From positions 1 through 58,480 of the forward strand of contig JAFWEX010000121.1 in NCBI GenBank assembly GCA_017512705.1: DNA of 58,480 nucleotides, in the 5' to 3' direction. This document shows, in pieces, positions 210 to 58,480 of this stretch; positions within the stretch are counted from its first letter, which is position 1, and every line of letters begins with the position of its first letter. This DNA comes from Paenibacillus sp. Lineage in GTDB: Bacteria > Bacillota > Bacilli > Paenibacillales > Paenibacillaceae. The translations under genes were made by a program, and so were the position numbers. The notes beneath the pieces are model-generated. The model had not been told where the DNA came from and made no database searches. It saw only the letters and a program-made list of their open reading frames with translations.

Positions 210-221
210 TCTTAAATAGAG

Positions 222-2960: not shown

Positions 2961-2989
2961 TTGCATTCAATCCAAAATTCATTTAAGAT
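2961..2989 (+). promoter_or_regulatory. Candidate sigma-A promoter of hprK
   Basis: TTGCAT (2961-2966), 17 bases, TAAGAT (2984-2989). It lies 170 bases before the hprK start, in a 270-base gap after the msmX terminator that holds no gene. The match is moderate. Confidence 0.4.
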
Positions 2990-3161
2990 TATTTGAAGGT
3001 CTGTCCTCAAGAGGGGAGCCTGTTGAAGTATACAAAATCAGCATCTCAAGGGCGAACTGGCTTGAATATGAATGCTGTTGTGAATGCGCTAATAATGGAA
3101 AGAAATGATACACAAGTGTGAGGTACATAGAGGTACAGCGAATGCTGAAAGGAAGAGACAA

Positions 3162-4100: not shown

Positions 4101-4125
4101 GAAAGGTTGCTCACAAGCCAATATA

Positions 4126-4251
4126 TAGCTCGATCGTAAACGATCATGCTATAAAGTTATTATGAAGCATGACAGATTGAAGCTTGCATGTAGCTCTTCA
4201 AACCTGAAGAGTGCTGCAGGCTCCAAGAGTCATGCTTACCGATGTGAATCG
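4126..4251 (+). other. Nested RNA hairpins between hprK and lgt
   Basis: Three hairpins fill this gap. The first (4126-4153) pairs ATAGC..GATCG with CGATC..GCTAT. The second is layered: AAGCATGA (4165-4172) pairs with TCATGCTT (4230-4237), inside it AGCTTGCA (4181-4188) with TGCAGGCT (4215-4222), and inside that CTCTTC (4194-4199) with GAAGAG (4206-4211). The third is CGAT-N4-ATCG at 4240-4251, next to the lgt ribosome site. None has a T run, so a processing or regulatory RNA element is more likely than a terminator. Confidence 0.6.
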
Positions 4252-4267
4252 ATAGGAGTGTGAATCA

Positions 4268-5302
4268 ATGGATACATTATTACTATTGAACCCGGTCGCG
4301 TTCTCTATTGGCGCTTTAAAGGTTCACTGGTATGGCCTGATCTTGGGTGCTGCTGCACTACTGGGTCTACTGCTCGTAATCCGTGAGGGAAAAAGATATA
4401 ACATTCCACAAGAAGTTTTCATGGATATGGTTCTGCTGGGTGTGCCTTCTGCAATTATTGGAGCTCGTATCTACTATGTAGCGTTTAAGTGGGAAGATTA
4501 TAAGGACAACTTCTGGGATGTATTTAAAATATGGAACGGCGGTATCGCCATATACGGCGCACTGATTGGTGCTATTATATGTGCAGTCATTTTCTTTTGT
4601 CGTAAAGGGTATAACTTCTGGCGTATGGCCGACATCTGTGCACCTGGACTAATTGTGGGACAAATGATCGGGCGCTGGGGGAACTTTGTAAACCAAGAGG
4701 CATATGGAGGTCCGGTTGAAGAGTCCTTTTTAAGAGACAAGTTGCACTTACCAGACTTTATTGTCAACCAAATGAACGTGGAAGGTGTATTCCACCATCC
4801 AGCCTTTTTGTATGAGTCAGTATGGAGTTTGGCAGGACTGATTCTGCTACTGATCCTTCGTCGTCAGAAGTTTTTGCGTTCAGGTGAATTGTTTATGTCC
4901 TATTTCATCTGGTACTCGATCGGCCGTTTCTTTATTGAAGCTGTGCGTACGGATAGTTTGGCTTTTCAGGCTCCGGAATGGGTCGCTTCATTCGTGAATG
5001 GACTGTGGTCTCCAATGACCGCACTTGGATTCGAACAGGGTTATCTGGACCCTGCGTATGGTAATGTACGAATCTCGCAATTGCTTGCCATCGGTATCAT
5101 TGTTGTTGCGGTTGTATTCATTGTGGTGAGAAGAGTGACAGGAAAAGCAGATGCACGTTACAGTGATCCGATCATCTCATCGAAAGTCACTGTTGATGAT
5201 ATCGAACATATGGGGACAGCCTCGGTTGAAGAAGTGAAAGGAACGACTACACCAAGTCCTACTCAAGAGGAATCAAAGCAAGTTGAAGATAAAAAGGAGT
5301 AA
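4268..5302 (+). CDS. lgt: Prolipoprotein diacylglyceryl transferase
   Basis: Lgt moves the diacylglyceryl group of phosphatidylglycerol to the lipobox cysteine of prolipoproteins, the first step of lipoprotein maturation in the membrane. The protein has 344 residues and about seven hydrophobic segments. The family signature GRWGNFVNQEAYGG lies near residues 135-148, and GRFFIEAVRTDSL is the second conserved stretch. The last 50 residues are a hydrophilic tail absent from shorter homologues. TAGGAGTG precedes the ATG. It is followed after 6 bases by ppaX. The sugar-binding lipoprotein at 19003 would be one of its substrates. Confidence 0.97.
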   Translation: MDTLLLLNPVAFSIGALKVHWYGLILGAAALLGLLLVIREGKRYNIPQEVFMDMVLLGVPSAIIGARIYYVAFKWEDYKDNFWDVFKIWNGGIAIYGALIGAIICAVIFFCRKGYNFWRMADICAPGLIVGQMIGRWGNFVNQEAYGGPVEESFLRDKLHLPDFIVNQMNVEGVFHHPAFLYESVWSLAGLILLLILRRQKFLRSGELFMSYFIWYSIGRFFIEAVRTDSLAFQAPEWVASFVNGLWSPMTALGFEQGYLDPAYGNVRISQLLAIGIIVVAVVFIVVRRVTGKADARYSDPIISSKVTVDDIEHMGTASVEEVKGTTTPSPTQEESKQVEDKKE

Positions 5303-5308
5303 TGCAAC

Positions 5309-5965
5309 GTGATTAACACGGTACTGTTTGATCTGGATGGAACGATTATTGATACCAATGAGCTGATTATTAAATCATTTCAACATGTGATGGAAGGTTG
5401 GGACCATACTGCCCCTTGGACAAGGGAACAGATTATCCCTCATATGGGAGGCACATTGGAGCAACAAATGCGAACCTTTTCAGGTCAGGAAGAGGTATCG
5501 GAGTATGTAAAAGGCTATCGAGCCTATAATAATATTCACCATGAAGCAATGGTCAAACCTTTTCCCCACGTAAATGAGGTGATAGAGGCTCTGGATCAGG
5601 CAGGCATTACGATGGGGGTGGTAACTACCAAAATCCGTCCATCCACCTTAAAGGTACTGGAGCGTTTTGATCTACTTAAATATATGAAGTCCATTGTGAC
5701 GGTAACCGATGTAACTCATCCTAAACCCCATGCAGAACCAGTACAAAAAGCAATGACAGAACTGGGGTCAAATCCTGCCCACACTCTGATGATAGGAGAC
5801 AGCCCTGTCGATATTCAGTCGGCGCAAAATGCGGGTGCTCTGTCTGCAGGTGTAGCCTGGTCACTTAAAGGGGAGCAGGTACTAAGCGGGTATAAGCCAG
5901 ATTACATTTTGTATGATATGAGAGATTTGCTGGACATGGTGCTTACAGGAACGAAACGTTCATGA
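5309..5965 (+). CDS. ppaX: Pyrophosphatase PpaX (HAD family)
   Basis: A cytoplasmic HAD-superfamily phosphatase of 218 residues. In Bacillus, PpaX hydrolyses the pyrophosphate released when HprK dephosphorylates HPr-Ser-P by phosphorolysis. The motif FDLDGT (Asp8 nucleophile, Asp10 acid/base), the VTTK segment and [10 protein letters not shown] (metal-binding Asp) are all present. The start is GTG with AAAAAGGAGT upstream, 6 bases after the lgt stop. The location next to hprK supports this assignment over other HAD phosphatases such as phosphoglycolate phosphatase. Confidence 0.9.
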
Positions 5966-7176: not shown

Positions 7177-8370
7177 ATGACTAAACCGAAAGGCTTTGAA
7201 AAACCGATTGGCTTCCGTGACTATACACCACATGTGGTATCCAAGCTACGCATGATTGAACGCAACGTACTGGAGTGCATGGAGCGCTGGGGGTACCGTC
7301 AGATTATAACGCCAACTATTGAATACTATGACACTGTAGGTGTAGCGAGTTCTACATCGGATCGCAAACTGTTTAAATTGCTGAACAGCCGGGGAACAAC
7401 ATTGGTACTTCGTTCCGACCTAACAGCACCGATTGCGCGTGTTGTGTCATCGATGCTCAAAGATGAACCGTTGCCGCTACGTCTGTCCTACCATGCGAAC
7501 GTATTCCGTTCGATTGAAGAGGAGGCCGGACGTGAGGCCGAATTTTTCCAAACAGGTGTTGAACTTGTTGGAGATGATTCTCCTGAAGCAGATGCAGAAG
7601 TAGTCGCTCTTGCGATCGCGTCGTTACAGGCAGCGGGGGTGTCTTCTTTTAAAATAGCGATGGGTCATATGGGATTTCTGAATGGATTGTTGGAAGAAGT
7701 GATTCCGGGGCAGACCGAAGAGCAGGAGCAGTTGAAGGAAGGACTGTTGGGACGAGACTACGTAGGCTACCGCCAATCTATAGAAGCGTTACATCTGGAG
7801 CCAGAGCAGAAAGAGCGGCTTGAAGCGATTTTGCGTCTGCGGGGTGGAAAGGAAATCTGTACACATGCGAATGAGCTTAGCTCAAGTGCCGAGGCTGCAC
7901 AATCCATCGCCCATCTCTGTGCGGTGTTTGAAGTGTTAGAGGCTTATGGTGTATCCGAGCATGTATTGATCGATCTAACGATGATCGGTGACTTTTCCTA
8001 TTATACAGGTATGACGTTTGAAGGATATGCGGCAGAGCTGGGATCACCAGTGTGCAGCGGTGGGCGATATGACAATCTGCTACAGCAGTTTGGACGTGCG
8101 CTTCCGGCTACAGGTTTTGCGTTAAAAACGAACCGGATTATTGATGGTGTCCATGGCATCCGTATTGAAGAGAAGAAATCGGTACGTATTGAATATAGCC
8201 CAGAGCGCCGGGCTGAGGCACTAAACGAAGCAGCGAGATTACGCAGTTTGGGTCAGAATGTGGTCACATCCCTACTTCATGAGGAAAAGGGAGAAGCCAG
8301 TGGTCATGGGTCCGTTACGGAGCAGGATGAGCAAGTCATAATCTATGGAACCCAAAAAGGAGGAAAATAA
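7177..8370 (+). CDS. hisZ: ATP phosphoribosyltransferase regulatory subunit HisZ
   Basis: HisZ resembles the catalytic core of histidyl-tRNA synthetase but serves as the regulatory partner of the short HisG, which gives feedback control by histidine. The protein has 397 residues. The class II synthetase-like motifs [17 protein letters not shown] and the C-terminal SGGRYDNLL and FALKTNRI segments are present, while the anticodon-binding domain is short. GGGGTGA precedes the ATG. It is first in the his operon, directly before hisG. Confidence 0.95.
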
Positions 8371-8371
8371 G

Positions 8372-9022
8372 ATGGCGGATATTCTGAAGGTGGCGATGCC
8401 CAAAGGCCGCATCTATAAAAAAGCTTCCAAATTGTTTCGTGAGGCAGGCCTGGAAATTCCTGAGGACGTAGACGATACCCGCAAACTGGTCATTGAAGTG
8501 CCTGAAGCCGGGATGGAATTCATTATGGCTAAACCTGTGGATGTACCAACCTATGTAGAATATGGTGTCGCCGATATTGGTATTGTCGGAAAAGATGTAT
8601 TGCTTGAGGAAGATCGGGATGTGTATGAATTACTGAATCTGGGCATTGCCCAGTGCCGTATGTCGGTCATTGGACTACCAGACTGGCAACCGGGCATCCA
8701 GCAGAGGGTGGCAACCAAGTATCCACGAATCGCTTCCCAGTATTTTCGAGAGCGGGGGCAGCAGGTTGAGGTCATTAAACTGAATGGTTCGATTGAGCTT
8801 GCGCCTCTGATCGGTTTGGCTGATCGGATCGTCGATCTGGTAGAGACAGGGCAGACATTGCGTGAGAACGGACTAGTAGAAATGACAGAAATTCTCGACA
8901 TTACGAGCCGTTTGATTGCCAATCGGGTCAGTTACCGGATGAAAAATGCAAGGATTCAGGCGTTGTGTGATGCACTTCAATTGGTCATTCCCAGTGGAGA
9001 TGAAATTCGGGCAGGGAGCTAA
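8372..9022 (+). CDS. hisG: ATP phosphoribosyltransferase, short form
   Basis: HisG joins ATP and PRPP in the first step of histidine synthesis. The 216-residue length marks the short form that lacks its own regulatory domain and needs HisZ. Recognisable stretches are [10 protein letters not shown] at the N terminus, ADIGIVGKD and the PRPP-loop region [14 protein letters not shown]. The start at 8372 lies one base after the hisZ stop, with AAAGGAGG within the end of hisZ. The upstream in-frame ATG at 8345 would overlap hisZ and lacks a ribosome site. Confidence 0.96.
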
Positions 9023-9164
9023 CGCACATAGAGATAGATATGTAGATGAATCAATCGGAACCATTGGATAATGGTTAGATACGTAACTTCATAGATCAGT
9101 AACTCCATAGATCATAGATAGCACGCAGTATGAGGAGATAAGATACGTAAAGGAGGTCGTACGG

Positions 9165-10469
9165 ATGAAGATTGTACCAGCACGGGAATTCAACCTGAAG
9201 CGGGAAGTAGAGTATGGTACGTCGGAGCAAAATGAAAGCGTACGGCGCATCGTCGCAGACATACGCCGGGAAGGGGATGCGGCACTGCTGCGTTATACGG
9301 AGCAGCTGGACCGCACGAAGCTGACGGCTGCGCAGTTGCGCGTGCCGCAGGAGGAGCTCCAGGCGGCATATGCAGCCGTGGAGCCATCTTTTGTGGCGGC
9401 GATTCGGCAAGCCGCCGCCAACATCCGTGCGTTTCATGAGAAGCAGAAACGCAATTCATGGATGGACTGGCAGCCGGATGGCAGTCTGCTCGGCCAGGTT
9501 ATTCGGCCGCTGAAGCGAGTCGGCGTGTATGTCCCTGGGGGGAAAGCAGCGTATCCATCGTCGGTGCTGATGAATGTGATTCCGGCACAGGTTGCAGGTG
9601 TGCCGGAGATTGTGCTTGTCACACCGCCGGCGACGAACGGTGGTGAAGGCATTGACCCGTACATTCTCGTGGCTGCTGCGGAAGCAGGCGTGAACGAGAT
9701 GTACCGGGTTGGTGGCGCGCAGGCGATTGCCGCGCTGGCTTACGGCACGGAGAGCATCGCCCCGGTCGACAAGATCTGTGGGCCGGGCAATATCTACGTG
9801 GCGCTCGCGAAGCGTGAGGTGTACGGGGCGGTCGATATCGATAGTATCGCTGGGCCGAGTGAGATTGTGGTGCTCGCCGATGATACGGCGAACCCGGTGT
9901 ATGTCGCCGCGGACTTGTTGTCGCAGGCGGAGCATGACGAGATGGCATCGGCCATTCTCGTCACGAATTCGGCCGCGCTGGCGGAAGCCGTGCAGGCCGA
10001 GGTGCAGCGGCAGCTGGATGTGCTGCCGCGGCGTGATATCGCTGCTGCTTCCGTAGAGCAGTATGGCGCGATCATTGTAGTTGATTCCATCGATGAGGGA
10101 ATCAATGTGGTAAACCAGCTTGCACCAGAGCATCTGGAGATCATGGTGCAGGAGCCCATGGCTTACGCTGGCCGGATTGAAAATGCCGGTGCCATCTTCC
10201 TCGGACCGTATAGCTCCGAGCCGGTAGGCGATTACTTTGCCGGACCGAATCATATTATTCCGACAAACGGAACTGCCCGGTTCAGTTCCCCAGTGGACGT
10301 CGATGATTTTATCAAAAAATCTAGCTTGATTTATTATAGTAAGGAAGCATTGTTGCAGAATGGAGCAGCCATTATTGAATTGGCTCGTCATGAGGGGCTA
10401 GAGGGACATGCCCGTGCAATCGCTGTACGTTTAGAACAGGAAGGAAAGGTGGAAACGGACAATGGATAA
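9165..10469 (+). CDS. hisD: Histidinol dehydrogenase
   Basis: HisD carries out the last two steps of histidine synthesis, oxidising histidinol to histidine with two NAD+. The protein has 434 residues with the family segments [45 protein letters not shown], and the zinc-site region with [10 protein letters not shown] and the catalytic-loop APEHLEI. AAAGGAGG precedes the ATG, and a 142-base gap separates it from hisG. Oddly, roughly 9230-10060 is far richer in GC (62-70% in three 60-base lines counted by hand) than the gene ends and neighbours. The stop overlaps hisB by 8 bases. Confidence 0.96.
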
Positions 10470-11848: not shown

Positions 11849-12583
11849 ATGTCATCTTTTATTTTATATCCAGCGATTGATATCCGGGACGGCAAGTGTG
11901 TAAGACTGGTGCAGGGAGATTACAATCAAGAGACGGTATACAACGAAGATCCGGTTCAAGTTGCGCTTGACTGGGAGAAGCAGGGCGGTACCTATGTTCA
12001 TCTGGTAGATCTGGATGGTGCCAAAGCAGGACACCCCGTGAATGATGAGCTGATTGGGCGCATTGCGTCCGCAGTGAACGTACCTGTACAGGTAGGCGGC
12101 GGTCTTCGTACAGTAGCAGATGTGGAACGTTTGCTGGGGCTGGGCGTAAGCCGACTGATTATCGGAACAGCAGCGATTGAAGATCGTGCTTTTACAGAAG
12201 AAGTATTAGGACGTTATGGTGATAAAGTGGCCATCGGTATTGATGCGCGTAACGGATATGTTGCGACTCGTGGATGGCTTGAAACCTCCGAGGTACAGGC
12301 AGAAGTATTGGCGAAGGAACTCGCTGCTCATGGAGCGGAAACATTTATCTTTACGGATATCTCCCGTGACGGCATGATGCAGGGACCTAACGTAGAGGCG
12401 ATTGTGTCTCTTGCCAAAGCAAGCGGACGCACCGTTATTGCTTCTGGCGGTGTCAGTGTGATGGATGATCTGCTTCGTCTGAGTCGTCATACAGAGGATG
12501 GTGTTGGCGGAGCCATTGTAGGTAAAGCATTGTACACGGGCAGTATTGATCTGGCTGAAGCAGTGCGTTTGGTGAACAAGTAA
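11849..12583 (+). CDS. hisA: ProFAR isomerase
   Basis: HisA opens the ribose ring of ProFAR (an Amadori rearrangement) in the fourth step of histidine synthesis. The 244-residue TIM barrel has two half-barrel repeats, with the catalytic acid and base in PAIDIRDG and GIDARNGYVATRGW. The start at 11849 follows AGGAGG by the right distance, and the 21-codon extension from 11786 is not needed. A gap of 136 bases separates it from hisH, without a terminator. Confidence 0.96.
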   Translation: MSSFILYPAIDIRDGKCVRLVQGDYNQETVYNEDPVQVALDWEKQGGTYVHLVDLDGAKAGHPVNDELIGRIASAVNVPVQVGGGLRTVADVERLLGLGVSRLIIGTAAIEDRAFTEEVLGRYGDKVAIGIDARNGYVATRGWLETSEVQAEVLAKELAAHGAETFIFTDISRDGMMQGPNVEAIVSLAKASGRTVIASGGVSVMDDLLRLSRHTEDGVGGAIVGKALYTGSIDLAEAVRLVNK

Positions 12584-12612
12584 CGGATAATCAGTAGAGA
12601 GGAAGAGGCAGC

Positions 12613-13374
12613 ATGCTGGCAAAAAGAATCATTCCCTGTCTGGATGTAAAGGATGGCCGGGTCGTGAAAGGCGTGAACTTCGTGAATCTCCGCGATGCGG
12701 GTGATCCGGTAGAGCTGGCGGCTCTGTATGACCGCGAAGGCGCGGATGAACTCGTATTTCTCGATATCTCCGCTTCGGTGGAAGGTCGCGAAACGATGGA
12801 GGAAGTGGTAAGACAGACGGCGGGGGAGATTGCCATTCCCTTTACGGTAGGCGGCGGCATCTCCAAAGTAGAAGACATGAAGCGCATTTTGCGTGCAGGT
12901 GCAGACAAAATTGCGGTCAATACTGCGGCTGTTCTTAACCCCCAGATCATTGCCGATGGCGCACGTCGCTTTGGCTCGCAATGTATCGTAGTTGCTATTG
13001 ATGCCAAGTATAACGAGGCTTGGGGTGAGTGGGAAGTGTACACGCATGGCGGGCGGAAACCATCAGGTATCAAGGCATTGGAATGGGTCAAGCAAGCCGA
13101 GGAACTAGGCGCAGGGGAAATCTTGCTGACGAGTATGGATGCAGATGGTACCAAGGACGGTTTTGATCTGAAGCTGACTGCTGCCGTTTCAGAGTCGGTA
13201 CGTATTCCGGTCATTGCCTCAGGCGGTGCAGGCAAGGAATCTGACTTTTACGATGTATTCACTACAGGGAAAGCCGATGCAGGTCTAGCGGCAACCATTT
13301 TTCACTATAAAGAGATTGCTATACCGGCATTAAAACAACAATTAAGAGAGCAAGGGGTGGAGATCCGTGACTAA
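12613..13374 (+). CDS. hisF: Imidazole glycerol phosphate synthase, cyclase subunit
   Basis: HisF uses ammonia from HisH to form imidazole glycerol phosphate and AICAR. The 253-residue TIM barrel is a relative of HisA, with catalytic Asp in [14 protein letters not shown] and in [23 protein letters not shown] (broken here into its key parts VAIDAK and THGGRK). The phosphate-binding GGGISKVED and SGGAGKESD are intact. It overlaps hisI by 8 bases. Confidence 0.96.
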
Positions 13375-14119
13375 AGTAAGTGATGAGATCAAGGAACAGC
13401 TCTCCTTAGAGCAGGTTGTGGAGCACATCCGCTGGAACGAAGGACTGGTTCCTGCGATTGTACAGGATGTAGATACCCGTGAAGTATTAATGATGGCATA
13501 TATGAATCGTGAATCACTGAAACTGTCACTCGAATCCGGAGAAACCTGGTTCTGGTCGCGCTCGCGTCAGGAGCTGTGGCATAAAGGGAAGACATCAGGC
13601 AATGTACAACAGATTGTATCTTTGAAATACGATTGTGACGGCGATACGCTGTTGGTTGAAGTGAAACCAAAGGGGCCGGCTTGTCATACGGGTGTAGTTA
13701 CCTGTTTCCATAATGAAATTATAGGTTTACCAGCCAATGGAACAGAACAAGACATCAAAGAAGAAGCAGGAAGAACAGCAGACTCTGATACACGCTCTTC
13801 CTCTTCATCTAGCGCTGAGAGTCGCTTCGAGGTGCTGGCTGAACTCGAATCCGTCATCGCTGAGCGTGAACGCGAGCGTCCGGAAGGCGCATATACTACG
13901 TATCTGTTTGATAAAGGGGTCGATAAGATTCTCAAGAAGATCGGTGAGGAAGCCTCCGAGACGATTATTGCTGCCAAAAACAAAGACAATGATGAGCTTC
14001 GTCTTGAAATGAGCGACTTGATGTACCACCTACTCGTGCTGTTGCAAGAGCGCAAATTGCCGCTGGATGATATCATGTCTGAACTGAGTCGCCGTCACGA
14101 ACGGCCACGCCGGGATTAG
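13367..14119 (+). CDS. hisI: Bifunctional phosphoribosyl-AMP cyclohydrolase / phosphoribosyl-ATP pyrophosphatase
   Basis: A two-domain HisIE fusion of 250 residues that performs steps two and three of the pathway. The HisI domain (about 1-125) shows [16 protein letters not shown] and the metal ligands DCDGD and GPACHTG. The HisE domain (about 155-250) shows [12 protein letters not shown] and [16 protein letters not shown]. Between them lies a polar linker with a run of serines (near residues 140-152), longer than usual. It starts within the end of hisF. Confidence 0.95.
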
Positions 14120-14133
14120 GAGGCGAACGCTGA

Positions 14134-14973
14134 ATGCGTATAGACTATCACACCCATCATGAGCGCTGCGGACATGCTGTTGGGAAGCTGGAGGAATATG
14201 TACAGCGGGGGATCGAGATTGGACTGTCCCAGATTGGATTATCCGATCATATGCCCTTGCTGCATGTAGACCCTGATCAGTATTATCCGGAGATGGCTAT
14301 GTCTATGGATGAGCTGCCACGATATGTTGAGGAATGTTTTACCTTGAAGGAGCGGTATCGCGGACAGATTGAAGTGCGTGTAGGTCTTGAAGGTGATTAT
14401 ATTGAAGGCTGGGAAACAGAAATTCGTTCGATTATTGAGCGTTATCCATGGGATTACGTCATTGGATCTGTGCATTTTCTTGGCGAATGGGATATTACTG
14501 ACTTCCGGCAGACCCACCATTGGGAGGGCAAAGACGTCCTTGAAGTATATCGTCAGTATTATGATGCGGTAAGCAAAGCAGCAGGTACAGGCATGTACGA
14601 TATTATCGGACATGCAGACGTCATTAAACGTTTTGGCTATGTGCCCGCACCTGAGCAGACAGAAGAACGCTTGGCACTGGAGAATGCGGCTTTGCAAGCT
14701 ATCGCGAAAAGTGGCTGTGCGATGGAGCTGAATGCATCTGGTTTATCCAAGCCTTGTGCGGAGATGTTTCCAAGCCGGAGAATGCTGACCGAAGCGATTC
14801 GATTAGGCATTCCGCTTACGATGGGCTCCGATGCACATGATCCGATGAAACTAGGCGATGGTCTATCTGAGGCAGAGGCATTGTTACATGAACTTGGCTG
14901 TAAGGAAGTTGCTGTTTTTGAAGGCCGCCAGCGTTCGCTCATTCCTTTAAATGTAGACAATAGTAAAGTATAA
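14134..14973 (+). CDS. hisJ: Histidinol-phosphatase, PHP family
   Basis: This is a PHP-type phosphatase of 279 residues that converts histidinol phosphate to histidinol. The metal-binding motifs DYHTHHERCGHA at the N terminus, GLEGDY, IGSVHFLG, IGHADVIKRFG and the final MGSDAHDP are all present. TAGGAGG precedes the ATG and the hisI stop is 15 bases away, so it is part of the his operon and supplies the phosphatase step that monofunctional HisB lacks. A histidinol-phosphate aminotransferase (hisC) is not in this window. Confidence 0.93.
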   Translation: MRIDYHTHHERCGHAVGKLEEYVQRGIEIGLSQIGLSDHMPLLHVDPDQYYPEMAMSMDELPRYVEECFTLKERYRGQIEVRVGLEGDYIEGWETEIRSIIERYPWDYVIGSVHFLGEWDITDFRQTHHWEGKDVLEVYRQYYDAVSKAAGTGMYDIIGHADVIKRFGYVPAPEQTEERLALENAALQAIAKSGCAMELNASGLSKPCAEMFPSRRMLTEAIRLGIPLTMGSDAHDPMKLGDGLSEAEALLHELGCKEVAVFEGRQRSLIPLNVDNSKV

Positions 14974-51009: not shown

Positions 51010-51371
51010 GGGGGCATTTATGGATTCGACGGGGATAGTTCGAGCATAGGTAGCGGGTAGTGGGGACGCGTCCGCTTCATCAACGCTAAAGCCTATTAAA
51101 CGGCAAACAACAAACAAACTACGCTTTCGCAGCCTAAGAAACTGTGTGCGTGCTTCTAACCTGCATCGCCCATGTGACAGGATTAGGGGCTAACAAGTAG
51201 TGGGATACGCTGTCACATCTCCGCCTGGGGTGTGCTGAAGAAGACAATCAGGCTGACCCAACGTATAGCCGGTTACGGGGCGATACTCGGGTGACATCAA
51301 AACTGTGACTACACCCGTAGAAGCTTATGTGTCGTTATCTTCGGACAGGGGTTCGACTCCCCTCGCCTCCA
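51010..51371 (+). ncRNA. ssrA: Transfer-messenger RNA
   Basis: The 5' end GGGGGCATTTATGGATTCGACGG-type start (first bases GGGGGC, then TGGATTCGACGG) and the 3' T arm CAGGGG-TTCGACT-CCCCT with acceptor strand GCCTCC are characteristic. The tag frame at 51102-51137 encodes (A)GKQQTNYAFAA followed by TAA, a ClpP-type degradation signal. The discriminator A at 51371 is followed by TTA, so CCA is not encoded. With SmpB (49921) and RNase R (46862) nearby, the whole trans-translation set lies together. Confidence 0.97.
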
Positions 51372-51389
51372 TTAGTAGTATTAGAAAAA

Positions 51390-51412
51390 GCACCCAAGAG
51401 GGTGCTTTTTTG
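51390..51412 (+). terminator. Terminator of tmRNA
   Basis: GCACCC (51390-51395) pairs with GGGTGC (51400-51405), extended by an A run and a matching T run. Confidence 0.93.
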
Positions 51413-51450
51413 TTTTTGGTGAGTTGAAAAAGGGGTCGCTATCTTCTTCT

Positions 51451-51741
51451 CTAAAAACATGTAAATGACACAATGCTTCTTAGATCGACTCCAGTAAACA
51501 TCCATATTCGACCGGTCCATCTAAAACCTGCAACGGATGTACGCCCTACAAAGGTTGGGAAAAACCAGAATGCGTTCCCATTTCTCAGCCAAACATAGGT
51601 GTTGCGGAATAAACAACCGGCAATAGCTCCGGGGTCGATGGCGAATGCTGTAGCAGCGGGTTGCTGTGGTGTGAATTGTGGAGGAGGAGAGGATGGTGGC
51701 TGCTGTACTCCTTGTGGTCCTTGAGGTGGCATGAATGCCAT
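51451..51741 (-). CDS. Small protein of unknown function, Pro/Gln-rich N terminus
   Basis: A 96-residue protein I do not recognise. Residues 1-30 are rich in Pro and Gln (MPPQGPQGVQQPPSSPPPQF); the rest is aromatic and compact (GCLFRNTYVWLRNGNAFWFF, RTSVAGFRWTGRIWMF). There is no signal peptide. AAGGAGTG lies 8 bases before the start on the minus strand. It follows the gene at 51784-52089 on the same strand and probably shares its transcript. Both lie between the tmRNA and its degraded copy. A spore or envelope structural protein is conceivable from the style of the sequence, but this is a guess. Confidence 0.75.
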   Translation of the reverse strand: MAFMPPQGPQGVQQPPSSPPPQFTPQQPAATAFAIDPGAIAGCLFRNTYVWLRNGNAFWFFPTFVGRTSVAGFRWTGRIWMFTGVDLRSIVSFTCF

Positions 51742-51783
51742 AAGATTTCACTCCTTAATGATAGGATTAGGCTCGGGTCAGGC

Positions 51784-52089
51784 CTATAATAATGAAATGG
51801 CGAGTAAATTGAATAGCACCAGGGGTAATACGACATCATTTTGGAAACCAGGAACAAAGCCTCGATTAGTCACAGGGCTTGGTAGTTTTAAGTATAAAAT
51901 TCCCCTTTCGCAATGGATGAGTAACCCTTCAAAAACATCGCCATCTACTGTCTCCACTCGAACAAGTGTATTAACATGGTTTTCACATATATTTGTTACA
52001 TGGTCTTGAATGGATTTTACGTTATTCATAGTGGTTGGATCCATTCGAAACAATGTTTGTTCTTGTTGCCCCTGCAGTTGCAAGTTCAT
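51784..52089 (-). CDS. Small protein of unknown function, Sm-like strand pattern
   Basis: A 101-residue protein I do not recognise. After a polar N-terminal half (MNLQLQGQQEQTLFRMDPTT, then a helix up to residue 45) comes a beta pattern VNTLVRVETVDGDVFEGLLI, similar in style to the small barrels of Sm-like or DUF2642-type proteins, and a hydrophobic C terminus (VVLPLVLFNLLAISLL). The start is chosen at 52089 because TTGGAGG lies 8 bases before it; the upstream in-frame ATG at 52128 is before that site. First gene of a two-gene minus-strand unit. Confidence 0.72.
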   Translation of the reverse strand: MNLQLQGQQEQTLFRMDPTTMNNVKSIQDHVTNICENHVNTLVRVETVDGDVFEGLLIHCERGILYLKLPSPVTNRGFVPGFQNDVVLPLVLFNLLAISLL

Positions 52090-52277
52090 GGTCATGACCT
52101 CCAATTTAGATTCGTTCATCTTCTCCATTCTATGCAGAAGCCTATAGGGGAGTGACGGTCTGCATGCGATTGATAACAGGTCTCCATTCTTTTAAACGGA
52201 ATGACCCGAAGGAGACCGAGTGAAAGAGTGAACATATATTTATAATGGCTACTTGTTCCTTAACAAACGAATTTCAG

Positions 52278-52357
52278 GCGCCATCAAAACCGTGACTACA
52301 CCCGTAGAAGCTTATGTGTCGTTATCTTCGGACAGGGGATCGTCTCCCTCGCCACCA
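52278..52357 (+). repeat. Degraded copy of the tmRNA 3' end
   Basis: Positions 52282-52357 repeat 51295-51371 with 72 of 77 positions alike, at a constant offset of 987 bases up to one deletion. The changes hit the T loop (TTCGACT to ATCGTCT) and the acceptor strand, so it is not a working tmRNA end. Direct repeats of a tmRNA 3' end are the usual mark left by site-specific integration of a mobile element. The copy is probably the displaced original end (attachment site). Confidence 0.85.
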
Positions 52358-52374
52358 TTTGGTGGCTATTTTTG
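52351..52374 (+). terminator. Hairpin with T run at the end of the tmRNA copy
   Basis: GCCACCA and TGGTGGC form a stem, followed by TATTTTTG. It overlaps the last bases of the tmRNA copy. Confidence 0.65.
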
Positions 52375-52375
52375 C

Positions 52376-52706
52376 TTGCTTGGACTCGAAGAGGATGGGT
52401 AAATTGACCAGGCACGGGCTGAACTGCAAGCTATGTTCACAACCACCGATTAAACAGTGGCATCTACAAGAGAAGGATTTCTCTATTTACGCAAAATTCT
52501 CAACGCTTCCTAACGCAGGCAATGTCTTTTTTATACATAAGTTTTAGAGTATAGATGATATAATATGCATTAATTTATCCTTTAAAATAAAAATTTAAAT
52601 AAATTTCCAAAATTTACTTCCCAAAAGAAGGAAATCATAGTAACATGATAGGAGATTAGAGAATTTATTTCTAATCTACATAACAGCAAAGGATGTGCTT
52701 TCACTA
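52376..52706. other. AT-rich gene-free stretch
   Basis: No supported gene. Base composition shifts to strongly AT-rich after 52540, unlike the core genome to the left, which suggests acquired DNA. The promoter of the following secreted-protein gene must lie here, but no clear -35/-10 pair stands out. Confidence 0.4.
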
Positions 52707-53381
52707 ATGAAAAAAACAGGTTTTGCACTATCAGCAATTTTGGCTGCATCTACTTTAGTTTCAGGTATTTCCGCAGCTAATCCAGTTGTTCAGGACGCGA
52801 CTTCTCCTGAATCAATCGTTATTGATCTCAATAATGAAGTGATTGATTGGGAAGTTGAGAAACTTTCTCCAGATGAATTTCTAGTGAGATATGCTGAACT
52901 TACTGGAAAAAGTTACATCGAAGCCCGTGCTGAATTTCCAGAAAAAGCTTCAAAAAATGCTGCACGTGCATCCGGAATAAATCATACTTACGATGCTCAA
53001 TATTCTGCAATTATAGATCTTGGTAAAGGTGTGAAGGCGAAAGCTGGAGTACTTGTGCAGGTTCATGAGGTTCAATTTGGTGGGTCGATGGGTAGAGTGT
53101 TTAAAAAAGTGTATAACGATACGGGCTACATGGCTCCTTACACTGGCGGATCGTTCTCTGTCGTTAAAAACTTCGTGCAAGGCACGTTGCAATCAGAAAC
53201 TAAATTACAAGTAAGCTATAGTGGATATGCAGAGACTGCAGTAACTAATGAAAAATCCACAGGCTTGAATTTGGGAATTGATCAGTTAATTCAAGCGGGT
53301 TGGTCTGTATCTAGTACTAGCGGGACAACCACATTCTATCGCACACATTTTGACGGAAGTGGATACGTTAGCCCTAACTAA
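52707..53381 (+). CDS. Secreted protein of unknown function
   Basis: A 224-residue protein with a clear signal peptide (MKKTGFALSAILAASTLVSG, likely cut after ISA near residue 26). A short charged segment with PDEFLVRYAELTGKSYIEAR follows, then a beta-rich C-terminal domain of 130 residues rich in Ser, Thr, Gly and Tyr. I do not recognise the family. The style resembles secreted beta-sandwich or antimicrobial-related proteins, which is a guess. The start codon is uncertain: AAAGG lies 14 bases before ATG 52707, while GTG 52695 lies closer. It is a single-gene unit in AT-rich surroundings. Confidence 0.75.
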   Translation: MKKTGFALSAILAASTLVSGISAANPVVQDATSPESIVIDLNNEVIDWEVEKLSPDEFLVRYAELTGKSYIEARAEFPEKASKNAARASGINHTYDAQYSAIIDLGKGVKAKAGVLVQVHEVQFGGSMGRVFKKVYNDTGYMAPYTGGSFSVVKNFVQGTLQSETKLQVSYSGYAETAVTNEKSTGLNLGIDQLIQAGWSVSSTSGTTTFYRTHFDGSGYVSPN

Positions 53382-53402
53382 AACATGACTTTCTCTATTT
53401 CA

Positions 53403-53450
53403 ATAGGTATACAAAAAAACACTGCTGGCAGTGTTTTTTTGTATACCTAT
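53403..53450 (+). terminator. Perfect 22-base-pair hairpin terminator
   Basis: Positions 53403-53424 and 53429-53450 are perfectly complementary around a 4-base loop, with T and A runs inside the stem. It lies 21 bases after the stop of the secreted-protein gene and could work in both directions. Confidence 0.88.
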
Positions 53451-53805
53451 ATAGTTTTATCATGATCGTGTCCAATGTTTATTTGCCTGCAAGTCAGCAG
53501 AAGCTTTACGACACAGCAATCGTTTGCTGGTTCGTACCGTTTGATAATACTAATCCTCCTTAGTTTCATCTCCATGTTAATTTCATTATCCAAACCAATT
53601 TTCAATTATTTTCTAAAATGTCTAATCGACAAAATAAAAAGCGAAGAGGGTAAGCGTTTATATACCTTACCTGATTGAACCTCGCCTGTTTATACCGTGT
53701 AGCTACTGATGCTTTTACAATACAATTTAAACTATGTGCTATACCATTTTTATATCTTTCGAAAACCCAACCAAAAAATACCTTATCCATGTTAAGATTT
53801 TTCCT
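53451..53805. other. AT-rich gene-free stretch before the ribonucleoside operon
   Basis: No supported gene on either strand. Short frames at 53475-53678 and 53602-53823 lack ribosome sites and recognisable content. Confidence 0.4.
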
Positions 53806-53851
53806 TTGACAAATACAAATCATTTTTTATATACTGTGTGTAACCGGTTAC
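53806..53851 (+). promoter_or_regulatory. Promoter-operator unit 1 of the lacI-rbsK operon
   Basis: TTGACA (53806-53811), 18 bases, TATACT (53830-53835), followed directly by the palindrome GTAACCGGTTAC (53840-53851). The palindrome has the form of a LacI-family operator. Bound repressor would cover the transcription start. Confidence 0.85.
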
Positions 53852-53883
53852 CTAAAACAACTAGAACATATCTGCAGTCTCTT

Positions 53884-53929
53884 TTGACAATAGCCGATAT
53901 AACTCCGTATACTATGTGTAACCGGTTAC
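53884..53929 (+). promoter_or_regulatory. Promoter-operator unit 2 of the lacI-rbsK operon
   Basis: TTGACA (53884-53889), 18 bases, TATACT (53908-53913), then GTAACCGGTTAC (53918-53929). Every element is displaced by exactly 78 bases from unit 1, so the unit is duplicated. Two operators would allow cooperative repression. Confidence 0.85.
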
Positions 53930-53976
53930 TGACTGTTATAACCCGGCATTATATTGTTAAAAGAGGTTATTAAAAG

Positions 53977-54945
53977 ATGACGACTATTCGTGATGTTGCG
54001 AAAGCTGCACAGGTTTCAGTGGCCACTGTTTCCCGAGTTTTGAATAATCAAGGATACGTTAGTGCACATAGCCGCGAGAAAGTTGAGCGAGCTATCCAAG
54101 AATTAAATTATACTCCGAATGCTGTAGCCCGAAGCTTATACAAAAAGAAATCAAAATCGATCGGCTTTATCATTCCGGACATATCCAATCCGTTTTTTCC
54201 GCAGTTATTCAGAGCGGTTGAGAAATATTTAATTGATCATGAATATACCGTTTTATTGTTCAATAGCGATGATCAGCTTGATCGGATTTCCAATATTATG
54301 GATTCCATGAGGACAGAATATGTAGCGGGTGCGATTATCGTTTCAGATAAGATCAAGGAAGAGCATCTGGCGAAGCTGTCGATACCTGTTGTCGCCATTG
54401 ACAGGGTAATAAGTGAACATGTTCCTTCTTTAACAGTTAACAATTATAAGAATGCCCGCGAGGCGATCCGTTATCTTGTAAGTCAAGGCTGTTCTAACAT
54501 CGCCCATGTGAGAGGGCCGAAGGGTGTCTATAATGCTGAAGAGAGGTTTCGCGGATACCGTGATGAAATAGCGGAGCAACAGCTTCCATCGCTTGTTATA
54601 TGCGGAAATTATGATTTAAAGACTTCTCTGGTGGCAACAATGGAGTTATTAGACCAGCATCCTGAGATTGATGGCATATTTGCCGGAAATGATATCATGG
54701 CGGTGGGTGTTATAAAAGCTTTAGCTAAGCTGGGGATTCAAGTTCCAGATCAAATGAAGGTGATTGGCTTTGATGGAATTGAATGGGGCACCACGATTAC
54801 GCCGGAATTGACTACAATGGAGCAGCCTATTGAACAGATTGGCACGAAGAGTGGAGAACTTTTGCTGAATCTGATCGATGGACATGTAATGGACTCACAT
54901 CATTACAGCTTTGATGCTAAGCTCGTTGTGAGGGATTCAACATAA
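53977..54945 (+). CDS. LacI-family repressor (RbsR-like)
   Basis: A 322-residue repressor. The N-terminal helix-turn-helix TIRDVAKAAQVSVATVSRVL and the hinge helix (YTPNAVARSL) are followed by a periplasmic-binding-protein-like sensor domain (IGFIIPDISNPFFPQLFRAV, GIFAGNDIMAVGVIKAL, IGFDGIEWG). It begins the operon with ribokinase, nucleoside hydrolase and permease, so ribose or a nucleoside-derived sugar is the likely inducer. It probably binds the two GTAACCGGTTAC palindromes upstream and so controls itself. AAAGAGGTT precedes the ATG. Confidence 0.92.
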   Translation: MTTIRDVAKAAQVSVATVSRVLNNQGYVSAHSREKVERAIQELNYTPNAVARSLYKKKSKSIGFIIPDISNPFFPQLFRAVEKYLIDHEYTVLLFNSDDQLDRISNIMDSMRTEYVAGAIIVSDKIKEEHLAKLSIPVVAIDRVISEHVPSLTVNNYKNAREAIRYLVSQGCSNIAHVRGPKGVYNAEERFRGYRDEIAEQQLPSLVICGNYDLKTSLVATMELLDQHPEIDGIFAGNDIMAVGVIKALAKLGIQVPDQMKVIGFDGIEWGTTITPELTTMEQPIEQIGTKSGELLLNLIDGHVMDSHHYSFDAKLVVRDST

Positions 54946-54960
54946 AGGGAGAGAAACATA

Positions 54961-55863
54961 TTGATTACAGTGATAGGGAGTTTAAACGTAGACTTAACGT
55001 CCACAGTAGAACGTTATCCCAAAATGGGTGAAACGATTATTGGAACGGACTTCCGTCAAAATTTTGGCGGTAAAGGTGCGAACCAAGCAGTAGCCGCTGC
55101 TAAGCTGGGCGGCTCTGTTCACATGATAGGCCGTGTTGGTACAGATCACTTTGGTCAGCAGTATATTTCCTATCTAAAGGAACAATCTGTTGATATTAAC
55201 AATGTGGAACCGGTTACAGATTCCGCTACAGGTATTTCATCGATCGTGGTTACAGAAGGCGATAATTTGATCATCGTAGTTCCTGGTGCGAATTACGAGC
55301 TTACTCCCGCGGATATTGATGCATGCAGAGAGCAGATCGAGCGCAGCAATGTCATTGTGCTTCAACTGGAAATTCGCATGGATACCGTTGCTAGAGTACT
55401 AGATATTGCTTCTGATAAAGGTATAACCACCATACTTAATCCTGCTCCGTATCAGGATTTTCCGTCAGACTGGTGGGAGAAGATTACGTATCTGACTCCA
55501 AATGAACATGAAGCAGAAATGCTTATGAAATCATCTGGATTTCGTGATGAATTTATGGACAAATTAATTATTACCAATGGCAAGAATGGAATTGTCTATT
55601 ACAAGAATGGACAAGAGGTATTTATTAAAGCGCCAGTTGTTCAAGCAGAGGATACGACTGGTGCAGGAGACACGTTTAACGGCGCATTGAGCTATTGTCT
55701 CGACCAAGGGTATGCATTCCATGATGCTTGTTATCATGCGACATATGCAGCGAGTCTTTCCGTGACGAAATTCGGGGCACAAGGGGGAATGCCAACACTG
55801 CAGGAGCTGAAGCAATTCATGGACAGACTACAGAGTAAATCAAATGAAGTTAATGGAGGATGA
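54961..55863 (+). CDS. rbsK: Ribokinase
   Basis: A PfkB-family kinase of 300 residues that phosphorylates ribose to ribose 5-phosphate. The N-terminal signature GGKGANQAVAAAKLGG, the substrate loop and the C-terminal anion-hole motif DTTGAGDTFNGAL with catalytic Asp are intact. The start is TTG with AAAGGGAGAG upstream, 16 bases after the repressor stop. The stop overlaps possible early starts of the nucleoside hydrolase gene. Here its ribose would come from hydrolysed nucleosides. Confidence 0.93.
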   Translation: MITVIGSLNVDLTSTVERYPKMGETIIGTDFRQNFGGKGANQAVAAAKLGGSVHMIGRVGTDHFGQQYISYLKEQSVDINNVEPVTDSATGISSIVVTEGDNLIIVVPGANYELTPADIDACREQIERSNVIVLQLEIRMDTVARVLDIASDKGITTILNPAPYQDFPSDWWEKITYLTPNEHEAEMLMKSSGFRDEFMDKLIITNGKNGIVYYKNGQEVFIKAPVVQAEDTTGAGDTFNGALSYCLDQGYAFHDACYHATYAASLSVTKFGAQGGMPTLQELKQFMDRLQSKSNEVNGG

Positions 55864-55868
55864 TGTAC

Positions 55869-56789
55869 ATGTTAAAAAGACCGATTATTATCGACACTGA
55901 CCCTGGAATTGATGATGCAGTCGCAATAGCTATCGCCTTATTTAGCGAAGAATTAGATGTAAAACTAATTACGACGATTTCGGGGAATGTCGGCATTGAT
56001 AAAGTGACTCGCAACGCTCTGAAGCTGCTTAAATATTGGAACAAGGAAGTTCCGGTAGCGATGGGTGCGTCAACGCCCTTGATCCGTCAGCCTGAGGATG
56101 CGAGCGATATCCACGGTGCTAGCGGGATGGAAGGTTTTGATTTTGAGGAGCCTACTAATGAATTGCTTCTTAAAGAGAATGCAGTTAATGCAATGTACAG
56201 AGTCATTCAAGAGAGTGAGACACCAGTTACGCTCATTCCAATCGGACCGCTTACGAATATTGCATTGCTCTTGAAGGTATACCCTGAAGTGAAGAGTAAC
56301 ATTCAAGAAATTATTCTGATGGGGGGTTCCGTTTCCCGAGGAAATAAGGGGGTTATGTCTGAATTTAATATTCATGTTGACCCAGAGGCTGCAAAAATTG
56401 TTTTTGACAGTGGACTTCCAATCGTGATGGCTGGATTAGACGTTGGATTGAAAGCGCTTGTATTGCCTGAAGACAGTGCCAAGCTCGAACATATGAACGC
56501 GACAGGAAAGATGCTTCATAGCCTATTTAAACGATATCGCGGGGGCAGCATGAAGACAGGTCTGAAAATGTATGATAGCTGCGCCATAGCTTATTTGCTG
56601 AAGCCTGATTTGTTTGAAGCGGTAGATACGTTCGTTGATGTAGAGCTAAACGGCAGCTTGACAGCTGGAACTACAGTTGTTGATTTGAAAGGGTATCTGG
56701 GCAAGCCTAGCAATGCGAAAGTATGTATTGATGTTGATCCGGAGCGATTCCGTGAATGGCTACTGGATAGCTTGAGAAAATGTAACTAA
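55869..56789 (+). CDS. Inosine/uridine-preferring nucleoside hydrolase
   Basis: A 306-residue enzyme of the IunH/RihA family that splits ribonucleosides into base and ribose. The calcium-binding signature DTDPGIDDAVAIAIAL is N-terminal, followed by GNVGIDKVTRNALKLL, ITLIPIGPLTNIALLL-like stretch, GGSVSRGNKG, EFNIHVDPEAAKIVF and the C-terminal YDSCAIAYLL. The start at 55869 is chosen because GGAGG lies 9 bases upstream; ATG 55860 and 55863 overlap rbsK. The base preference cannot be read from the sequence. Confidence 0.92.
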   Translation: MLKRPIIIDTDPGIDDAVAIAIALFSEELDVKLITTISGNVGIDKVTRNALKLLKYWNKEVPVAMGASTPLIRQPEDASDIHGASGMEGFDFEEPTNELLLKENAVNAMYRVIQESETPVTLIPIGPLTNIALLLKVYPEVKSNIQEIILMGGSVSRGNKGVMSEFNIHVDPEAAKIVFDSGLPIVMAGLDVGLKALVLPEDSAKLEHMNATGKMLHSLFKRYRGGSMKTGLKMYDSCAIAYLLKPDLFEAVDTFVDVELNGSLTAGTTVVDLKGYLGKPSNAKVCIDVDPERFREWLLDSLRKCN

Positions 56790-56824
56790 CATTTAAACAA
56801 ATGACTAGCTAAGAGGGGAACCCG

Positions 56825-58243
56825 ATGATGGATATTATTATGTACGGTGCGGCCATTGTGGCGATTTTAATAATTGTATATATGTTAATTAAACAAATGG
56901 ATATTAAGATTACATTGTTCTTTATCGGGATTGCACTCATGTTCATTGCTATTGCGATGGGTAATGGGATCAGCATCAAGGACTTTGAAAGCACGGGGGC
57001 AGTTTGGCTCGATCCTTTGCTGGCCATAGTGAACCAGTTCAAATCGACCTTAACCTCGGCAGGGTTTATCATCCTTGTCCTGGGCGGATATACTGCTTAT
57101 ATGTCTCATATTAAAGCAAATGATGTGACCGTTAATGTTATAACGAAGCCTCTTGGCAAAATTAAATCGGTATATATTCTTGTGCCTGTTGTGTTCTTGC
57201 TTGGAAATTTGTTGTCCCTGGTTATTCCTAGTGCATCAAACTTGGCAATAATTTTGCTCGCAACTCTGTTCCCTGTATTAAGAAAGACAGGAATGTCAAC
57301 TTTGTCTGCAGCAGCCATTATTGCTACATCAGCAACGATTATACCTACTCCACTGGGAGGAGATAATGTTGCAGTAGCAACTGAACTAGCCCAACATGCT
57401 GCTTTTGCGAACATGACCGTAACGGATTATGTCTTCCGCTATCACGCTTTGGTTTCCATCCCTACCCTGCTAGTAATTGCAGTGGCTCATTATTTCTGGC
57501 AGAAGCGTATGGATAAAAAGATGGGAACTGAAGCCGGGGAGCTGGAAGCAGAGTTGAAGGATATTAAGCTAGTGGAAGGCGGCAAATTGTTTACATTTGT
57601 GTATGCCTTGCTGCCAGTGCTCCCGATTCTGTTTCTAATTGCAGTGTTTATCCTCCAATCTGTATCCGATATTAAAATTGATGTTAGCGTAGAGATTGTC
57701 GCCTTATTGTCTTTCGCGATCGCTATTGTCTGTGAATTGGTTCGCCATAGAAAAACTAAAGAGGTACTGAACGGCACAGAGCATTTCTTTAAAGGAATGG
57801 GTAACGCAATGCCAATCGTGGCTCTGCTTGTGGCAGCATCTGTATTCGTTACAGGCTTGAAATCAATTGGCATGATCAAAGCTTTGGAACAAGCCATGAT
57901 AGGTATTCAAGGATCTAGCCTTGGATTTGTTCTCCCGCTCATACTCGTTGCAATGACTGCTTTAATCGTTATTCTCAGCGGCAGCGGTACTGCACTCTTC
58001 TACTCCATGGTTCCTCTAATTGTGCCTCTTGCTGCAGCTGCCGGTATTAATCCGATTGCAGTTAGCATACCAATGGGACTTGCTGGTAACCTGCTCCGGG
58101 CAGTGTCTCCAGTAGCTGCGGTTATTCTGATCGTAGCCGGATCGGTTAAGAAGAGTCCGATCGAGATTGTGAAGCGGACATCTGTACCGATGATTGTCGG
58201 TGTAGTCTTCATGTTTATTCTCTCCATGATTTTCTTCCTGTAA
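56825..58243 (+). CDS. DcuC-type permease, probably for nucleosides
   Basis: A membrane protein of 472 residues with about 12 hydrophobic segments, similar in build to the DcuC C4-dicarboxylate carrier group (PSASNLAIILLATLFPVLRK, IPTPLGGDNVAVATELA, SGSGTALFYSMVPLIVPLAAA, cut). The operon (repressor, ribokinase, nucleoside hydrolase) points to uptake of ribonucleosides rather than dicarboxylates; this is inference from context. AAGAGGGGA precedes the ATG, 35 bases after the hydrolase stop. Confidence 0.85.
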   Translation: MMDIIMYGAAIVAILIIVYMLIKQMDIKITLFFIGIALMFIAIAMGNGISIKDFESTGAVWLDPLLAIVNQFKSTLTSAGFIILVLGGYTAYMSHIKANDVTVNVITKPLGKIKSVYILVPVVFLLGNLLSLVIPSASNLAIILLATLFPVLRKTGMSTLSAAAIIATSATIIPTPLGGDNVAVATELAQHAAFANMTVTDYVFRYHALVSIPTLLVIAVAHYFWQKRMDKKMGTEAGELEAELKDIKLVEGGKLFTFVYALLPVLPILFLIAVFILQSVSDIKIDVSVEIVALLSFAIAIVCELVRHRKTKEVLNGTEHFFKGMGNAMPIVALLVAASVFVTGLKSIGMIKALEQAMIGIQGSSLGFVLPLILVAMTALIVILSGSGTALFYSMVPLIVPLAAAAGINPIAVSIPMGLAGNLLRAVSPVAAVILIVAGSVKKSPIEIVKRTSVPMIVGVVFMFILSMIFFL

Positions 58244-58304
58244 ATGAGTTCGCTGGCGAGCTGTGGTTCCTGATTTTCGCGGCTCGTCTCCATTAGAGAC
58301 AACA

Positions 58305-58337
58305 AACCATCAACCAGCGTTCTGGTTGGTGGTTTTT
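58305..58337 (+). terminator. Terminator of the ribonucleoside operon
   Basis: AACCATCAACCAG (58305-58317) pairs with CTGGTTGGTGGTT (58322-58334) around CGTT, ending in a T run. A smaller palindrome GTCTC-N5-GAGAC lies at 58286-58300. Confidence 0.92.
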
Positions 58338-58342
58338 CTGTT

Positions 58343-58480
58343 GTGCGCCCGGCATGGGCGATAACTCGGTGGTGAAAGTCCACTACAGGCTTGGCAGTAG
58401 GAACTGTTAGCGGAAGGCAAGGATGTCCGTTGCGAGGCGGAATCTGAAGGAAGCCGGAGGCAAACCCTCGGTCTGACGAA
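58343..58480 (+). mobile_element. Group II intron, 5' part (runs past the window end)
   Basis: The sequence from 58343 begins GTGCGCCCGGCATGGGCG and continues with AGTAGGAACTGTTAGCGG, GGCAAGGATGTCCGTTGCG, GGAATCTGAAGGAAGCCGG and GGCAAACCCTCGGTCTGACG, the typical domain I start of a bacterial group II intron ribozyme. The intron-encoded reverse transcriptase/maturase should lie beyond the window. It starts 8 bases behind the stem of the operon terminator, on the same strand. Confidence 0.88.

Follow-up and report, generated by a model that had tools for sequence, protein, structure and literature searches.

The window, that is, the whole 58,480-nucleotide stretch of Paenibacillus sp. DNA analysed here, contains the tmRNA gene ssrA followed by two small genes, P1 and P2, a second copy of the ssrA 3′ end and a longer insert with sugar-catabolism genes (Table 1). 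The genome to which it belongs (G000) comprises 5.17 Mb in 159 contigs and is 94.8% complete.

Table 1. Features of the window from ssrA to the contig end.
Feature	Position	Strand	Evidence
ssrA (tmRNA), working gene and probable insertion target	51010..51371	+	ARAGORN, Rfam RF00023
28-bp quasi-palindrome GGGTGACATCA-AAACTG-TGACTACACCC (11-6-11), proposed recombination site	51289..51316	+	sequence; role inferred
Intrinsic terminator behind ssrA; first part of the cassette past the ssrA end	51384..51411	+	
P1, 96 aa; N-terminus Pro/Gln-rich, C-terminal half conserved	51451..51741	-	
P2, at most 114 aa; helix and Sm-like barrel predicted	51784..52128	-	
Sigma-K-type promoter-like site (relaxed form) of the P2-P1 pair	52127..52153	-	
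Displaced second ssrA 3′ end, decayed; forms the right cassette edge	52274..52359	+	
Terminator hairpin at and behind the displaced copy	52351..52366	+	
Adjoining insert: secreted-protein ORF, LacI-type regulator, PfkB kinase, nucleoside hydrolase, DcuC-type carrier	52374..58284	+	
Other ssrA end (last bases) and zeta-cassette terminator	58284..58342	+	match to G034 ssrA end/terminator
Group II intron, 5′ part, cut by the contig end	58426..58480	+	Rfam RF02001, RF00029

The original prediction, made from the letters of this DNA, held that the last 77 bases of ssrA are repeated 987 bp downstream. We find that 51295-51371 agrees with the copy at 66 of 77 positions without gaps and at 72 of 77 when one 1-base gap is allowed, with the differences falling mainly in the T loop and the acceptor strand, as had been described. 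An ungapped comparison of 51287-51361 with 52274-52348 (spacing 987) gives 92% identity over 75 bp. The repeat is far beyond chance, since the second-best 77-mer match in the window reaches 35/77 and the copy has a BLAST E of 1.6e-27 in the whole genome. The interval contains, again as predicted, a terminator and two minus-strand ORFs, neither of which matched a Pfam or NCBIfam family. No integrase, no serine recombinase and no remnant of transfer or integration genes was found between the window's two copies, in keeping with the description of an integrated element at the ssrA 3′ end that has a two-gene cargo and no integrase between the copies. A missing CCA in ssrA had been noted as fitting a 3′ end delivered by the element; this carries no weight, because encoded CCA is absent from ssrA in all 75 genomes of the genus (75/75).

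P2 and P1 form a conserved gene pair of the Paenibacillaceae. The start of P2 probably lies further in than that of the longest reading frame, near 52089-52095, and an RBS-like GGAGG is present at 52102 in P2. Sigma-K promoters follow the consensus AC-N16/17-CATANNNTA. In 75 of the 80 P2 loci (L275-L277, L287 and L291 were left out), a sigma-K-type promoter was observed at 33 in a strict form and at 70 in a relaxed form, the corresponding frequencies in random windows being 0.3% and 1.8%; the site of the P2-P1 pair in the window has the relaxed form only. The P2 set comprised 37 sequences, with L302, L320 (which has an internal stop) and L336 left out. P2 is predicted to fold into an N-terminal helix and a five-stranded Sm barrel, an arrangement of the Sm/LSm type. 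Matches of the predicted structure include GerQ (8zra_A, 14% identity) and the Mnx complex (9bxa_E, 6% identity); however, the scores of Hfq and LSm proteins are equal or higher, so that the fold alone gives no function. By sequence profile, no PDB relative of P1 or P2 was found below E 0.1. The prediction for P2 is alike in structure to Sm-like spore proteins, and a spore setting is suggested by the sigma-K-type promoter. P2-P1 is probably an operon read by sigma-K in the mother cell to make small spore barrel proteins.

The genus survey covered up to 20 kb downstream of ssrA in G000 and 74 other genomes, 71 of the 75 regions being at least 3 kb long. Both genes lie near ssrA, with 92-100% protein identity to the window, in seven of the 75 genomes (G000, G043, G034, G035, G064, G053 and G038), and a truncated P2 was found in G010 and G011. 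The search through related ssrA regions that the original prediction had proposed thus yielded relatives without the cassette as well as larger islands beside it, and the two genes and the repeat are not shared by all related genomes, as ancestry would require, the cassette lying near ssrA in 7/75 genomes and a broken piece in two more. A quick tree of 29 genomes, calculated from the ~4.4 kb that precede ssrA (rnr, smpB), sets the carriers in three places, and a single clade of all seven is rejected (AU p 2.8e-7). Between these lineages the cassette is 92.6-96.2% identical, whereas the upstream rnr-smpB region is 79.1-84.1% identical. Fourfold sites of G000 and G035 agree at 47/50 positions in P1 and 41/43 in P2 (88/93 for the P1P2 cassette in total) but at 123/281 in rnr, and the contrast is weaker between G000 and G053 (P1 40/50, P2 38/43, rnr 175/291). 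These sequence comparisons indicate that the P1P2 cassette is horizontally transferred between species. Vertical descent, with P1P2 and the repeat old in the lineage and lost from some relatives, could account for presence alone, and P2 homologues are indeed widespread in Paenibacillaceae chromosomes, with P1 also present in 60 of the 80 fetched P2 loci; we nevertheless regard it as highly improbable, given that the identity and the fourfold sites of the cassette stand far above those of core genes, that one clade is rejected, and that the loci fetched for the distant pairs (P2 36-57%) contain no ssrA sequence. Ten further close P1P2 pairs were found outside the genus set (P2 65-83%). Three of these share a locus with ssrA sequence (P. 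taiwanensis, P. oralis and P. sp. ACRRX), with the ssrA copy directly beside P2 in P. taiwanensis and P. sp. ACRRX, and the other seven have none in the fetched locus. The simplest reading is that a resident operon would have been captured onto an ssrA cassette and then spread. The term remnant, used in the original prediction, is apt for the displaced copy, which has decayed, but not for the cassette, which is almost unchanged between distant species.

To the right of P1P2, no copy was detectable in G034, G035, G064, G053 and G038, where homology ends 40-60 bp short of the expected place of the copy; precise right ends are therefore seen in G000 and G043 only. These two genomes are of the same species and have different sequences after the right-hand copy, which points to separate insertions or later rearrangements.

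Many other cassettes are found at the same place. Long ssrA 3′ copies, defined as 69 bases or more, occur within 20 kb of ssrA in 34 of the 75 genus genomes. The commonest cassette encodes a 65-aa ORF and a zeta-like kinase (Pfam Zeta_toxin 7.5e-08) and measures ~850 bp from ssrA to its copy; its flank is common to 18 copies in the edge list, and of the close relatives G034 and G035 the first has it and the second lacks it, with a clean junction at the same point. Between long copies we also observed a Fic/Doc and MazE-like pair (G017, G002), a GIY-YIG protein with a Schlafen-type helicase (G013) and an SMC-like relative of LmuB/PtuA (G033). A full-length match to Mokosh MkoC (1,164 bits; gene 1436-4879) lies between two ssrA 3′ copies in L083 (G073), accompanied by a 192-aa ORF without a family (4891-5469). 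Longer stretches bounded by long copies contain type I RM systems (G040, and a different one in G010) or a HindVP-type RM system (G059). Cargo without a Pfam family includes proteins of 321 aa in G002 (L076 972-1937) and 500 aa in G066 (L091 16591-18093), and a cassette ORF of G022 (L099 2244-2975) has a weak HEPN match. The ORFs of G066, G002 and G022 are candidates for hitherto unknown defence genes. P1P2 is unusual among the cassettes in that its cargo is not defence-like. Terminators differ by cassette type, each type having one of its own.

The order of the cassettes also differs. In G043 the order is ssrA, type I RM, zeta, P1P2 and flank, so that P1P2 lies 7.7 kb from ssrA behind the type I RM island and the zeta-toxin cassette. 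In G000 it is ssrA, P1P2, copy and sugar-catabolism insert, followed by a zeta remnant split by a group II intron, a copy, G043's RM and G043's flank. The G000 order runs across contigs C1 and C37, which we infer to adjoin because the 5′ part of the intron ends C1 and its 3′ part lies at G000:C37:45-121, because the zeta C-terminal remnant IPAWANPV stands behind the 3′ part, and because the outer flank shares 95% identity with its G043 counterpart. The intron seems to be situated directly behind the zeta-cassette terminator (window 58284-58480, G000:C37:1-273), splitting the cassette, and the assembly breaks there. The RM parts of G043 are 96-97% identical to those of G040 and G042, and the upstream regions 80%. 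The RM and sugar inserts have another type of end, consisting of only about the last 9 bases of ssrA. Additionally, related ssrA 3′ copies occur far from ssrA in G061 (L129), G060 (L185) and G059 (L193), that of G061 adjoining a P2 fragment; perhaps these were moved by genome rearrangement.

Where the copies join ssrA was determined in positions that run backwards from the ssrA 3′ end (the 83rd-last base is -83), with a difference of one base between scripts in places. When 23 cassette groups are compared with the ssrA of the same genome, the matching fraction is 0.34 at -108 to -91, 0.48 at -90 to -84, 0.79 at -83 to -73, 0.94 in the spacer and 0.97 beyond. Of 58 copies, 13 were left out of this profile because they match at fewer than 32/43 positions to the right of the site; they include G043's P1P2 copy and the zeta copies in G056, G054 and C37. 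The 23 groups of the profile still include one zeta duplicate (G051). Thirty of 45 edge groups have their edge at -97 to -69, and six reach 103-218 bases. After four zeta duplicates and one P1P2 duplicate had been removed by hand, 11 of the 28 edges between -130 and -60 fall at -86 to -81 (binomial 8.6e-6, for an interval chosen after looking). This peak is at the outer edge of the 11-6-11 quasi-palindrome, which in the Rfam alignment falls on the last hairpin (its 3′ strand) and on the linker that leads to the 3′ strand of the long helix. Because the site is in this linker, the copy corresponds to the 3′ half of the tRNA-like domain, and by analogy integration here may be for tmRNA what integration at the anticodon loop is for tRNA genes. 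A single fixed crossover was set aside because the edges are spread, and we therefore claim only a site preference; a fixed site cannot explain all copies, since edges lie at 103-218 bases and ssrA copies in other genera extend up to full length (20 stretches, chosen mostly for long matches). Across the family, an ssrA 3′-end match was found in 195 of 197 genomes, many of them with second copies. Among the matches listed for 60 genomes picked for having at least two, second copies mostly start at about -85 to -69, which is indicative and not used as proof, since BLAST ends may stop early.

We searched the 75 regions for recombinases, using a tyrosine recombinase profile made from 24 genus sequences (a few of them the same gene) and, for large serine recombinases, two queries over 20 kb. 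Three tyrosine integrases (G015, G049, G058) and five intact large serine recombinases (G018, G044, G057, G063, G068) were found, along with several broken ones. In none of the 34 long-copy genomes does an intact tyrosine or large serine recombinase lie within 20 kb of ssrA ahead of the last long copy, and none of the eight genomes with an intact recombinase has a long copy in the 20-kb region (0/34 and 0/8, Fisher p 0.0067). A tyrosine-integrase island with a lost integrase, as originally proposed, is not supported by these regions; an integrase may have been lost early from the ssrA element. Farther out, long copies lie in G068 (54-58 kb) and G049 (47 kb). Altogether, the tyrosine and large serine scans identified no recombinase acting on the ssrA site. 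Behind the G068 prophage, the ssrA sequence is reduced to its last ~23 bases, which adjoin the prophage's other end in inverted form. Elements with a 481-aa serine recombinase seem to end near the ssrA acceptor, and the genomes with an intact recombinase lack long copies within 20 kb, so that the long-repeat cassettes look like a different class.

Large serine recombinases were considered as movers of the long repeats and set aside: judging by the ends at the G068 prophage and in G031, the 481-aa type would have its crossover close to the acceptor end, and G018, G025, G044, G055 and G057, two of whose serine recombinases are broken, have a single ssrA 3′-end match per genome. XerC, XerD and XerS, for which the tyrosine recombinases of seven genomes were clustered, were also set aside, the ssrA site being unlike dif sites. 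Two types of large serine recombinase, apparently of prophages, are encoded directly downstream of ssrA (L177, L175 and L176 from IMG/VR; G057, G068, G018, G044 and G063).

The ssrA 3′ end matched 34 phage records and 6 from plasmids, in every case over less than 80% of the query; two matching Listeria records are assembly nodes and were not used. A Moorella phage record has a serine-type integrase beside the ssrA end, a Priestia plasmid carries a host-type smpB-ssrA region, and each of two viral pattern scans gave three contigs with ssrA, identical in both. The P1P2 cassette had no match in phages. In plasmids it matched 18 Priestia/Niallia records, with 28-30% of the query covered, at P1, among the matches listed, and the zeta cassette had two plasmid matches over 54 bp.

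Taken together, the 987 bp at ~51300-52290 represent, with moderate confidence, a non-autonomous cassette that has its place within the 3′ part of ssrA and moves between species; the confidence is no higher because right-hand copies were detected in just two of the seven carriers in the genus and the scans gave no recombinase for the site. Each such cassette would contribute the final 70-95 bases of ssrA together with a terminator, cargo genes (here the captured P2-P1 operon) and a left half-site. Recombination would take place in the linker that precedes the 3′ strand of the tRNA-like domain, and its most likely agent is a trans-acting recombinase that recognises the 11-6-11 site. Insertion would give ssrA a new 3′ end and push the old one downstream, where it would decay. 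A broader proposal, which we put forward tentatively, is that ssrA of the Paenibacillaceae could be an integron-like docking site, at which integrase-less kilobase cassettes circulate, insert and reshuffle at the 11-6-11 sequence via a trans recombinase, each delivering a functional tmRNA end and a terminator. The pool of such cassettes would hold toxin-antitoxin, restriction, Mokosh-like and other defence genes and even a sporulation operon.

The absence of a recombinase with the long copies is also what integrase-free homologous recombination would predict. In that explanation, which we consider rather unlikely, circles or transforming DNA with at least ~70 bp of ssrA 3′ end recombine with ssrA through RecA; ssrA is thereby restored and a 5′-shortened copy stays behind, so that cassettes are mobile without a site-specific enzyme. 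The minimal homology length in B. subtilis is ~70 bp, and the copy lengths are near it; high-identity copies shorter than ~69 bases hardly occur, the T-arm class excepted, and the edges vary, up to 218 bases in the genus and to full length in other genera. However, arbitrary homology lengths would lead one to expect neither the excess of edges at -86 to -81 nor the half-conserved left arm at -83 to -73. Improbable in our judgement is a decayed, CIME-like element, in which an island lost its own integrase for the site and what was left of it travelled on together with islands beside it. The account of Dehalococcoides in PMC3146451 does describe tandem ssrA islands without integration genes, and pieces of serine recombinases precede a long copy in G016, G045 and G059. 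Yet in the genus stretches no long copy was accompanied by an intact integrase, elements with the 481-aa serine recombinase appear to have their ends near the acceptor, and the five genomes with single ssrA matches have such enzymes, two of them broken, and no second long copy genome-wide.

Integron cassettes are integrase-less kilobase units, often with toxin-antitoxin or defence genes, in arrays that change order. The ssrA cassettes, for which a trans recombinase is proposed, are likewise kilobase-sized and integrase-less and form arrays of changing order; they differ from integron cassettes in having their site in ssrA and in bringing an ssrA 3′ end with each unit. Dehalococcoides carries tandem ssrA inserts that are bounded by ssrA 3′ repeats and very variable between strains (McMurdie 2011, PMC3146451); as far as that account goes, its islands have a 20-bp T-loop repeat, 16 with a CcrB-like serine recombinase and 15 without integration genes. 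Measured against this description, the Paenibacillus inserts also lie downstream of ssrA and are bounded by 3′ repeats, but these are mostly 69-97 bases long from the linker and come without an intact recombinase; in the window the repeat starts ~85 bases before the end of ssrA, and the DNA between its copies encodes no serine recombinase. CIMEs are outlined in PMC5704250 as decayed ICEs or IMEs with attachment-like repeats and no integration or transfer genes, moved in cis. Within that outline, the window's cassette resembles them in its flanking att-like repeats, its lack of integration and transfer genes and its stacking with other elements, but no decay from an ICE or IME is visible and the P1P2 cassette stands alone in several genomes. 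The Islander account (2014, PMC4383910), as far as it extends, requires a tyrosine integrase in each tDNA island and treats serine integrases as not known to target tRNA genes. By those terms, a target gene and a displaced 3′ fragment mark the insert here too, but the integrase gene is absent, and ssrA cassettes would be passed by. The ssrA island is an already known kind of element, and the variant here is its long-repeat, recombinase-free, kilobase form together with its site. Among the matches listed for literature on Paenibacillus ssrA islands and tmRNA attachment sites, none was evidently on these arrays.

If the docking-site proposal is true, small cassettes lacking an integrase of their own use an essential RNA gene as their landing pad, and a share of the defence and toxin-antitoxin genes of Paenibacillus spreads via ssrA. 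It becomes a testable question which enzyme, or whether RecA, recombines the ssrA site. Inspecting the DNA between ssrA and its 3′ copies would also offer a route to the discovery of defence genes.

Two observations come from other genera of the family. G087 (L258) has two nearly full-length ssrA copies that are offset by 849 bp and ~90% alike. Adjacent pairs of serine recombinases resembling ccrAB lie near ssrA in G203 (+7784-10375), G196 (+169-3467) and G216 (+11926-14632), corresponding to L255, L262 and L263; the ssrA copies there are ~100-243 bases long, and at two of the three loci they start at sequence that shares AAACTGTG with the ssrA site.
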